Below the pieces are notes generated by a model. That model was not told where the DNA came from and did no database searches. It saw only the letters and a list, made by a program, of their open reading frames with translations. From the NCBI RefSeq assembly GCF_008632075.1, contig NZ_VWVM01000001.1:248001-312000 (forward strand): DNA of 64,000 bases, written 5' to 3'. A program made the position numbers and the translations under genes. Source of the DNA: Candidatus Pantoea gossypiicola (GTDB lineage Bacteria; Pseudomonadota; Gammaproteobacteria; Enterobacterales; Enterobacteriaceae). Shown one piece after another: positions 47,098 to 50,688 of this stretch. The number at the start of each line of letters is the position of its first letter. Position 1 is the first letter of the stretch.

Positions 47098-47114
47098 CAC
47101 TGGTCTGATATGTG
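47098..47114. promoter_or_regulatory. FadR site 2 of fadL
   Basis: CACTGGTCTGATATGTG keeps the ACTGGTCNGA half of the FadR consensus and a degenerate second half. It sits at the predicted transcription start. Confidence 0.6.
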
Positions 47115-47198
47115 CGTTTTACGTCAGTCCCTACAATCCGCCGTCCTTTGTTACGCGACGTTATAGCGTTAAATAATAATTCACATGAGGTTGTGGTC

Positions 47199-48482
47199 AT
47201 GAACCATAAAAACCTGTTTGCAAAGTCAGCCGTGGCGGCTGCAGTGGCGCTTGTCTCTTCACACGTTTACGCAGCTGGATTTCAGTTAAATGAATTCTCT
47301 ACGATTGGTTTAGGTCGCGCATATTCAGGCGAAGGAGCAATGGGCGATACAGCGGCATCAGCCAGCCGTAACCCGGCGACGATGGCGTTAATGGATCGTC
47401 CGGAATTTTCACTCGGTGCGGTTTATATTGCGCCAGACGTCAATATCAGTGGTCGCAGCCCCAGCGGACGCAGCCTGGATGCCAATAATATTGCCCCGAA
47501 TCAGTGGGTCCCCAATATTCATTATGTTCAGCCCATCAACGATCAGTGGTGGATCGGCGCGTCTGCAACCTCTAATTATGGCTTAGCAACAGAGTTTAAT
47601 AATGGCTACACCGCGGGGGGTTACGGCGGTAAAACCGATCTGGTAACCGGCAATTTCAATCTCAGCACCGCGTACCGCTTAAATGAGCATTTTAGTTTTG
47701 GCGTCGGTTTTGATGCGGTTTATGCCAAAGCCAAAATTGAACGCTATGCCGGTGAGTCAGGCGCAAGACTGGGCGTTCCGGCTGATACGCAGGTTGCCCA
47801 TCTGAAAGGCGATGAGTGGGGATATGGCTGGAACGCCGGTATCCTGTACGAAGTGGATGAAAATAACCGTTTCGGCTTTACCTATCGTTCAGAAGTGAAA
47901 GTCGACTTTGATGGCGATTACAAAAGCAGCCTCTCTTCCCGACTGAATGCAGTGAATAACCCGGAAGTATCAGGTGTACCTTTTGGCACCAATGGCACCA
48001 CTGTTCCTGGCGCGTTAACCCTGAATCTGCCAGAGATGTGGGAAGTATCGGGCTGGCATAAAGTGGCACCGCAGTGGGCGGTTCACTACAGCATGGCCTA
48101 CACCAGCTGGAGCCAGTTCCAGGAGCTGAAAGCCACCGGTTCTAATGGCCAGACGCTTTTCTATAAAGATGAAGGCTTCCGTGATGCTTACCGCATTGCA
48201 CTGGGCACAACCTATTCCTACGACAAAAACTGGATTTTCCGTACCGGTATTGCGTTTGATGACAGCCCGGTACCGGCTGATAAGCGTTCTATCTCTATTC
48301 CGGACCAGGATCGTTTATGGCTGAGTGCGGGTACGTCTTACGCCTTTAACGATGATGCCTCAGTCGATTTGGGTATCTCTTATATGCATGGGCAGAAAGT
48401 AACGGTGAAAGAAGGTCCTTATACCTTTACCTCTGAAGGCAAGGCCTGGCTCTATGGTGCGAGCTTTAACTACAAGTTCTGA
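47199..48482 (+). CDS. fadL: Long-chain fatty acid outer-membrane transporter FadL
   Basis: Beta-barrel that takes up long-chain fatty acids. The ATG at 47199 follows GAGG and begins [25 protein letters not shown], a signal peptide cleaved before [35 protein letters not shown], the plug sequence typical of FadL. It has 427 residues (E. coli 446) and ends in an aromatic residue ([11 protein letters not shown]), the outer-membrane insertion signal. The frame back to 47112 is non-coding promoter. Confidence 0.96.
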
Positions 48483-48501
48483 TCGAGGGACGGGTTTAAA
48501 A

Positions 48502-48525
48502 AAGGCGACTCTGATGAGTCGCCTT
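48502..48525 (+). terminator. Terminator hairpin of fadL
   Basis: AAGGCGACTC/GAGTCGCCTT with a TGAT loop, 19 bases after the fadL stop. The T-run is only two bases; there is an A-rich 5' flank. Confidence 0.6.
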
Positions 48526-48681
48526 CAGACAGCTGACCAACCTCGACTTTTTCCCGGCAGGTACGGGAGTTCCAGAAATTCTCACTCTTCGACGTCTTTC
48601 TTCACCATGGTTAATCAACGCTCGCATAGCGAAGATTTACCCTCACCTTTCCCGGACTCTTTCATTACAGGTTTATCGCGG

Positions 48682-49564
48682 CGGTTTATCCCCGCTCGCG
48701 TGCGGAACACTCGTTCTGTGTCAATTTCTATTAGCTCTGCGCCGGTTTATCCCCGCTCACGCGGGGAACACAGCGTCAGCGTAATGGCACTGCCCACATA
48801 CTCCGGTTTATCCCCGCTCACGCGGGGAACACTCCGGCGTTACCCGGGCATGGGTAGCGCCACGCGGTTTATCCCCGCTCACGCGGGGAACACTTCTTCT
48901 CCGCTGACAAGGCGCAGGCTGAATCCGGTTTATCCCCGCTCACGCGGGGAACACTGCATCCCGCGTCAGCCGGACACGGGCTCAACCGGTTTATCCCCGC
49001 TCACGCGGGGAACACCGGGTATCGTCACTCTAGCCTCTCGAATTGTTCGGTTTATCCCCGCTCACGCGGGGAACACCAGCCAGTACCTGACCGGCCTGAC
49101 TGTTAAGCCGGTTTATCCCCGCTCACGCGGGGAACACCCGACGGATATCGCGTCAAAGGCACCAGCGCACGGTTTATCCCCGCTCACGCGGGGAACACAG
49201 CCTCCCAATCTGCGATCCAGTCGCCGCCAACGGTTTATCCCCGCTCACGCGGGGAACACCATCGCTGTGAATGATGGGCGAAAGAAGTACTCGGTTTATC
49301 CCCGCTCACGCGGGGAACACGCCCTTAATATCCCGCTCAAAATCAGACAGGTCGGTTTATCCCCGCTCACGCGGGGAACACGCTTCATGAATCAGCCAGC
49401 CATGAAGAGTCAGCGGTTTATCCCCGCTCACGCGGGGAACACTATACAGTCTGTGTATTTGCTCATTGCGAGACCGGTTTATCCCCGCTCACGCGGGGAA
49501 CACTTAAAGCCCGCACGCGGCGGGCTTACATGTGCCGGTTTATCCCCGCTCACGCGGGGAACAC
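48682..49564 (-). CRISPR. Type I-E CRISPR array, 15 repeats and 14 spacers
   Basis: A 29-bp repeat recurs at exact 61-base steps: 48682, 48743, 48804, 48865, 48926, 48987, 49048, 49109, 49170, 49231, 49292, 49353, 49414, 49475 and 49536. All 14 spacers are 32 bases and differ from one another. Read on the minus strand the repeat runs GTGTTCCCCGCGTGAGCGGG then GATAAACCG, the type I-E form. Fourteen copies are identical; the copy at 48682 has three mismatches and marks the trailer end. The leader is therefore at the high-coordinate side. No cas gene lies in the window; neighbours are fadL and mlaA. Confidence 0.98.
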
Positions 49565-49640
49565 TCTAAAATTATCCGACTGATTACAAAGCGTTTTTTC
49601 GCACCAGAAAATTCTACCGAATTTTACATCCGGATCTGCC
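49565..49640 (-). promoter_or_regulatory. CRISPR leader
   Basis: AT-rich DNA directly upstream (minus strand) of the first repeat. The junction reads ATAATTTTAGA then GTGTTCCCC, matching the TTTAGA/GTGTTCCCC junction I recall for E. coli type I-E leaders. AATCAGTCGGATA (49573-49585) is one mismatch from the IHF consensus WATCARnnnnTTR and sits where IHF binds in E. coli leaders. The pre-crRNA promoter should lie in or just beyond this stretch. Confidence 0.65.
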
Positions 49641-49923
49641 CCTATGAGCCGTTATTCTCAGACACCAAATCTGTCGAAAAAATACTGTTATTCAGGAAGG
49701 CAGAAGGTTAATAACAGCCCCAAACAGGAAAGGTCGTTACGAATTAAGTCAGAAGTAAAAGCAGAAGAGAAAAGTTTTCCATAGCATGAACGACGAGAAT
49801 CGGGCGATCAGGAAGAGCCTGAACCTGAACTCTGTTCTTACCCGGTCTTACAGCAGACCGGGTAAGACGTCAGCAATAAAATCAAAACGACGTATGTGAC
49901 GCGCCCTTTTAAGGACCGTAACA
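49641..49923. other. CRISPR leader-mlaA gap
   Basis: 283 bases without a recognised gene. A 13-bp perfect inverted repeat with a 6-nt loop (TCTTACCCGGTCT/AGACCGGGTAAGA, 49836-49867) lies 57 bases beyond the mlaA stop. It has no T-run, and may be the mlaA 3' hairpin. A 37-codon frame (49786-49899) spans it but lacks a ribosome site. Confidence 0.5.
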
Positions 49924-50688
49924 TTACTGCGAATCGATATCCTTCAGGTCATCCTGAATCGCGGCTGCGTTAGGATTATCTTCCGGCTTGAGTTTACCGC
50001 CACGCGCCAGGAAGTCGTGCCGCTGGAAGTAGGCGTTACGGATAAAGGCGTACGGATCGCTCTGCTGTTTCAGGATGGCATCAGAATCCAGCAACTGAGC
50101 GCGGGTCTCAATACCTTCCAGCGTCCATTTACCAATCGACATTGGCCAGGTCAGCCAGCCGAGGATCGGATAGAGCGTATCAACATAGTCACCGCCATCC
50201 TGACGAACCGTGAAGCTGCCGTAAGCAGGCAGTTCAACATAAGGCCCGTAGCCGACGCCATAGTGACCCAGCGTGGTACCGAAACGGTGCGGCTCTTCGC
50301 GCGCCAGCTCCGGGTTGGCTTTACCGGCAACGTCAATGAAACCGCCCAGTCCCAGCACGCTGTTCAGGAAGAAACGGGTAAAGTGAATGCCCGCATCACG
50401 TCCGTTACCGACCAGAATAGCGTTGACCATACTGGCTGGCTCTTCCAGGTTGCCGAGAAAATTGCTCAGGCCGGTACGCGCCGGGACCGGCACATAATCA
50501 CGCCATGCCACAGCGACCGGACGAAGCACGTACGGATCCAGCACGTTGTAGTTAAAGTTAAACATCGTGCGGTTAAAGCCTTCAAATGGATCGCTGCGCT
50601 GCGCAGGATCGCTATTTGCCGGCTTTGAACTGGCACAACCCACCAGAAGGACGCTGGCGACAGCCAGGCTGGTCAGGCGATAATTCAT
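49924..50688 (-). CDS. mlaA: Phospholipid-transport lipoprotein MlaA (VacJ)
   Basis: Outer-membrane lipoprotein that removes mislocalised phospholipids from the outer leaflet through the Mla pathway with OmpC/F and MlaC. It has 254 residues. The lipobox LLVGC has Cys18, and Ala at +2 fits outer-membrane sorting. The family core DPFEGFNRTMFNFNYNVLDPYVLRPVAVAWRDYVP and the GHYGVGYGPYVELPAYGSFTVRQ block are present. In E. coli it lies between fadL and yfdC; here the CRISPR array and ccm operon flank it. Confidence 0.95.
   Translation of the reverse strand: MNYRLTSLAVASVLLVGCASSKPANSDPAQRSDPFEGFNRTMFNFNYNVLDPYVLRPVAVAWRDYVPVPARTGLSNFLGNLEEPASMVNAILVGNGRDAGIHFTRFFLNSVLGLGGFIDVAGKANPELAREEPHRFGTTLGHYGVGYGPYVELPAYGSFTVRQDGGDYVDTLYPILGWLTWPMSIGKWTLEGIETRAQLLDSDAILKQQSDPYAFIRNAYFQRHDFLARGGKLKPEDNPNAAAIQDDLKDIDSQ

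Follow-up and report, generated by a model that had tools for sequence, protein, structure and literature searches.

The CRISPR array described here, from Candidatus Pantoea gossypiicola (the host), is most probably a canonical type I-E array that has recently lost its Cas machinery. It lies at positions 48682–49564 of the window, by which we mean the whole 64,000-nucleotide stretch of DNA that was analysed. Repeat analysis and recounting confirmed the structure given in an earlier note on this DNA, namely 15 repeats of 29 bp at an exact period of 61 bp, 14 of them identical, and 14 spacers, each 32 nt long and each unique. The repeat is palindromic and folds into a strong hairpin (−15.2 kcal/mol, z −3.9). 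A genome-wide pattern search allowing up to 3 mismatches returned 44 copies in the host and none for the reversed-repeat pattern used as a control, which excludes chance. The first repeat (48682–48710, minus strand) is a degenerate, leader-distal terminal repeat that on comparison deviates from the other 14 at 3 of 29 bases, and the opposite side fits a repeat-plus-leader pattern exactly. With the altered repeat at the low-coordinate end and the leader at the high-coordinate end, the array is expected to be transcribed on the minus strand from that leader; a sigma-70 promoter scan of the leader found no promoter. Assignment to type I-E is based on the 29-nt hairpin repeat, the leader and the regularly spaced, non-repeated spacers of some 32 nt, as well as on spacers from mobile DNA with an AAG protospacer-adjacent motif (PAM). 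The last is seen for window spacer 11 and for four of the five matched host spacers; of the 14 window spacers, 2 gave a usable match, the other having TAA at its best one.

The array is flanked on the left by fadL (47112–48482, plus strand; the longest open reading frame, whose true start is possibly further in) and on the right by mlaA (49924–50688, minus strand), identified by protein match. MlaA is 97–99% identical to the proteins of the eight nearest named loci, all of them Pantoea, P. agglomerans included, and on this ground the host resembles a member of the P. agglomerans group. Gaps between the two genes were taken between protein alignments and could be measured in 72 of 80 named loci. 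In the host the gap spans 1,441 bp, against 66 and 68 bp in the two Escherichia coli loci, so the array does sit within a gene pair adjacent in that species, as previously noted. Among the eight named Pantoea loci nearest to the host, six have gaps of 74–143 bp; the remaining two have 215 bp (L018) and, in an array-bearing locus (L023, Pantoea sp. GD03673), 768 bp. L023 was the only one of the 80 loci to contain the host repeat (up to 7 mismatches), with 4 repeats and no shared spacer. Gaps of 2.6–3.0 kb without the host repeat were also seen in L032, L036, L037, L038, L040 and L041.

The DNA on both sides of the array is conserved in relatives. The leader and the intergenic DNA behind it (49565–49923, minus strand; first 100 nt 60% AT) align with the fadL–mlaA sites of two other genomes of the genus, with 82% identity over 367 columns for G050 and 69% over 372 columns for G015 (taken to be Pantoea sp. 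GD03673), and this conservation backs the earlier placement of the leader on the high-coordinate side. The trailer-side intergenic DNA (48483–48681) is 86% identical to that of G050 over 199 nt. Judged by these trailer- and leader-side identities, the fadL–mlaA array sites of the host and G050 are orthologous.

For the cas genes, searches with seven proteins (Cas1, Cas3, Cas8e, Cas7e, Cas6e, Cas5e and Cas2e) were run against the host assembly, a 4.94-Mb draft in 47 contigs rated 100% complete, and none of them was found. Of 61 genomes of the genus, one gave a Cas1 match and one a Cas3 match, and Cse1 (Cas8e) was detected in 2 of 60, the host not being among them in any case, and a joint tblastn with Cas7e, Cas6e, Cas5e and Cas2e gave nothing in the host. 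The Cas1 model detects the E. coli control. The Cse1 and Cas3 models miss it, and their power is shown by G015 and, for Cse1, also by the remote G010: G015 was positive in the Cas1, Cas3, Cse1 and joint tblastn searches, and G010 in the Cse1 and joint tblastn searches. The Cascade proteins of G010 were detected despite only 25–31% identity to those of G015, indicating adequate sensitivity. A Cas5 model (PF09704) did not detect the E. coli control and was set aside as uninformative. The earlier description of an orphan type I-E array with no cas gene nearby can therefore be extended, for the seven proteins sought, to the whole assembly, within the scope of a 47-contig draft and of genes other than type IV.

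The same searches bear on the proposal, made in the earlier note, that the array is still served by cas genes elsewhere in the genome, which found no support among the seven proteins sought. A broader form, in which the array is served in trans by cas genes on a plasmid, in DNA missing from the assembly or entering the cell at times, is in our judgement quite unlikely. The assembly is a draft, and cas genes could lie on a plasmid that was lost or on DNA that failed to assemble; the clean repeats would fit such service, as would spacers that differ wholly between species at orthologous sites, where acquisition probably continued after the species split, and plasmid-borne Cas1e occurs in other Enterobacterales. 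Against it stand the failure to find any of seven Cas proteins in an assembly rated 100% complete and a plasmid Cas1 search with no Pantoea among the best 40 of 183 matches and the ten named top organisms. Separately, G010 carries on contig C8 (L097:9698-14666) a Cascade-only I-E set (cas8e, cse2, cas6e, cas7e and cas5e), followed by diverged repeats of a different sequence at 60–62-nt steps, on a contig with a plasmid-type Rep3 initiator; no Cas1 or Cas3 match was obtained in that genome.

The genome search for further arrays with the same repeat, suggested earlier, yielded three, two between phoE and crl and one between lysR and lpd, so that the host has four arrays at three sites. The phoE–crl arrays contain 18 and 10 repeats, lie 2.2 kb apart and have 3 of 27 repeats altered when one altered terminal repeat is excluded. 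They appear as one array split by a 2.2-kb insert (L010:9038-11207) carrying a zeta-toxin-like gene and a partner of unknown kind, the left part being without a leader; G015 and G050 each have a single array at this site and no match to the insert. The array beside lpd has 5 repeats with 8, 2, 4, 2 and 0 mismatches, and its 2-mismatch form is a common variant in G015 too.

Six of the 61 genus genomes contain repeats with at most 2 mismatches, and five of these six gave no Cas1 match. Among the five, repeat counts are substantial in the host (43) and G050 (28) and few in G042 (7), G035 (3) and G030 (2). Sampling of 198 genomes across the wider family gave 35 with a leader-attached array; a Cas1, of whatever type, was detected in 28 of these 35 but not in the other seven, the host among them. 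Cas1 thus accompanies arrays in 1 of 6 array-bearing Pantoea genomes versus 28 of 34 of the rest (Fisher p = 0.004), a comparison that is indicative only, as arrays were scored by different criteria in the two groups and Cas1 was counted regardless of its type.

A likely home site for the lost operon was recognized between lysR and lpd, a gap examined in 30 of 61 genomes, those for which loci were returned. In G015, cas2-cas1-cas6e-cas5e-cas7e-cse2-cas8e-cas3 lies here between a lysR-side and an lpd-side array. The cas3 gene (L096:9846-12506) is broken by an in-frame TGA, and for this reason G015, the only genome of 61 with both Cas1 and Cas3 matches, may lack interference too. Its lysR-side array (L096:3191-3497) contains a two-spacer block present twice with one different spacer in between. 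The host interval from lysR to lpd measures less than 1 kb; going from lysR, a single isolated repeat (6 mismatches) is followed by a hicB-like gene, the 5 repeats (one unaltered) and lpd. In G057 a cas1 fragment of 33 residues (58% identity, E = 7e-9) lies in the interval together with one repeat and a hicB-like gene, and G043 has a hicB-like gene there with no repeat and no cas match; the hicB-like genes of host, G057 and G043 are at L012:9502-9810, L151:1653-2084 and L153:3276-3575, respectively. Weak tblastn cas matches in lpd gaps (E ≥ 0.02) were not counted. Since no significant cas remnant was found in the host gap, deletion there is deduced from the relatives; on the sequences compared, we infer that the cas operon was ancestral at lysR–lpd and was then lost repeatedly.

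The age of the array was approached through its spacers and repeats. Comparison of 122 spacers from six genomes revealed none common to two genomes. With an orthologous site and yet no common spacer, the simplest account would be that the arrays were filled separately in each lineage once the lineages had split. The 14 clean repeats of the window array show no change in 406 nt, and across the 41 repeats of the fadL–mlaA and phoE–crl arrays, a count that leaves aside two altered terminal ones, the changes amount to two substitutions and one indel. Over seven genes, the host has diverged at four-fold sites by 0.144 from G050 and by 0.259 from G015. If a neutral clock is assumed and the altered terminal repeat excluded, the age of the clean repeats of the window array would be no more than about 10% of that of the split from G050; selection on repeats while cas is active, and recombination, could distort this estimate. 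The earlier note took the uncorrupted repeats as a sign that cas genes are present; they are better read as a sign of recent building, and suggest a recently built array rather than cas still present. It had also held that missing I-E cas genes together with identical spacers in distantly related strains would indicate a dead relic: no cas genes were found, but neither was any spacer common to the other species compared. An ancient dead relic therefore fits no better than an array still served, and recent orphaning fits best.

Freshness could also have been acquired at second hand, if homologous recombination in the fadL and mlaA flanks had recently exchanged an old array for a clean one from a cas-positive donor, in which case the state of the array would be silent on when the lineage lost cas. 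The conserved flanks and the uneven gene-to-gene divergence from G050 (0.056 to 0.199) are compatible with such an import. The phoE–crl arrays, however, share this repeat and are almost as free of changes, so that a second locus would have needed replacement, and we regard this explanation as very unlikely. Recent orphaning remains the preferred reading.

The origin of the spacers was examined by comparison with phage and plasmid DNA, a check proposed earlier that succeeded for spacers 5 and 11 and gave no usable match for the other 12 window spacers. Spacer 11 (49321–49352, minus strand) matches the viral contig IMGVR_UViG_3300031134_000326 perfectly (32/32) with an AAG PAM; for the gene holding the protospacer the best PHROG is of unknown function and the next ones are a lytic tail protein and an endolysin. 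Spacer 5 (48955–48986, minus strand) matches phage helicase genes, with 3 mismatches and TAA in EF2-1, its best match, and 4 mismatches and AAG in SP-031, as well as a gene of Blautia phage NatCom_24097 with 4 mismatches and AAG; flanks were checked for these three phages. Three spacers of the phoE–crl arrays also gave matches flanked by AAG, one to phage 15G (1 mismatch), another to phage phiNP (2 mismatches) and a third to a prophage-like stretch of the Pantoea plasmid pPagL15_1 (2 mismatches). AAG is therefore present at the best external match of four of the five matched host spacers (p = 3e-7), and 38 of 43 host spacers had no accepted external match. Window-spacer matches were drawn from the best 40 of 81 records, and those with E ≥ 2 were not counted, except those of spacer 5. 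The IMG/VR scan used exact 22–23-nt pieces from 8 of the 14 window spacers (spacer 5 and spacers 7–13), one of which matched. A BLAST with the whole array returned mostly other arrays through the repeat and was redone with spacers alone. Matches of spacer 14, 20–30 nt around its terminator-like hairpin and including a Pantoea piersonii plasmid and Pantoea phage AH01, were dropped as probable chance.

Three host spacers match the host's own DNA. A phoE–crl spacer matches a prophage exonuclease gene, beside an integrase gene, with an AAG PAM and 4 mismatches, all PAM-distal, while the 23 PAM-proximal positions match without exception (23/23). Another spacer has matches at the starts of two contigs (5 mismatches, AAG), and a third has one in DNA lying between two phage structural genes (4 mismatches, AAA). 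The contig-start matches, at L112:104-135 and L113:104-135 (host contigs C17 and C5), involve the same spacer at equal distance from the start, and a phage primase/helicase gene lies near the match on C17; this arrangement suggests that the two contigs are related prophages broken in assembly. In E. coli, mismatches across positions 25–32 left no detectable interference, and priming still occurred (PMC5904413). The self match alone is thus no proof of a dead system, given that PAM-distal mismatches abolish interference yet allow priming in E. coli. A live system would nonetheless be expected at least to prime on the exonuclease site, which supports, but does not prove, inactivity.

A further possibility is that the arrays are retained for another function, either regulating host genes or, in the manner of the anti-cas orphan I-F arrays of E. 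coli, guarding the cell when cas operons enter it. The guard role has a precedent, in that the targets of orphan I-F arrays in E. coli are for the most part I-F cas genes (Almendros et al. 2016, cited through PMC8616872). The accepted matches of the host spacers are all to phage or phage-like DNA, and no spacer matched cas in the two operons compared: the 43 host spacers had best scores of 11 and 12 mismatches against the G015 and G010 operons, respectively, versus 12 and 12 for shuffled spacers. A retained guard or regulatory role is highly improbable.

Taken as a recently orphaned I-E system, the host arrays would have the following history. An ancestor would have had a cas operon at lysR–lpd, whose Cas1 and Cas2, acting in trans, would have selected phage DNA next to AAG PAMs and inserted it into the arrays that have leaders; the operon would then have been deleted or replaced. 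The spacers would now be a memory that can be neither read nor extended in this strain unless cas genes return.

Arrays without cas genes are already known in Cronobacter (PMC5626840) and Serratia (PMC9981886). In Cronobacter dublinensis and C. muytjensii, strains lacking cas genes retain a single array with 14 or 15 spacers, and other strains of the same species carry I-E or I-F operons (PMC5626840); in contrast, the host has four arrays at three sites, and a likely cas home site and a cas1 fragment in a relative were found. In Serratia, 18 of 35 CRISPR-positive complete genomes have arrays only, read as possible remnants (excerpt of PMC9981886), and the site of the lost operon, placed for the host, is not given in that excerpt. 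The anti-cas I-F arrays of E. coli likewise persist as orphans after cas loss (PMC8616872), but in the host five spacers match phages or phage-like DNA and none the two cas operons compared with them. The closest known system is the E. coli-type I-E CRISPR-Cas of Enterobacterales, of which G015 is the nearest example; it shares the 29-bp palindromic repeat, the 32-bp spacers, the leader, AAG at phage sites and several arrays per chromosome, and differs in that G015 has a full operon, with cas3 stopped in frame, whereas no cas gene was found in the host. One P. agglomerans strain reportedly has neither arrays nor cas genes (PMC10882544), and among the titles listed in literature searches none was devoted to orphan I-E arrays in Pantoea.

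Orphan arrays are often dismissed as decaying relics or assembly gaps. The combination of a clean array, a likely operon site, a relative with an operon and a relative with a cas1 fragment makes this a good setting for studying the rate of cas loss and the usability of the memory left behind. A wider generalization, rather unlikely at present, is that CRISPR immunity in Pantoea persists through its arrays rather than its cas genes, with fixed sites at fadL–mlaA and phoE–crl inherited vertically while cas genes come and go at lysR–lpd, each arrival refilling the arrays. If so, most lineages with arrays would at any given time possess a clean and readable memory but no machinery, and an operon that returned could draw on that memory immediately. 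Should Pantoea indeed swap cas genes in and out of one site, the presence of an array as evidence of immunity would have to be read differently.
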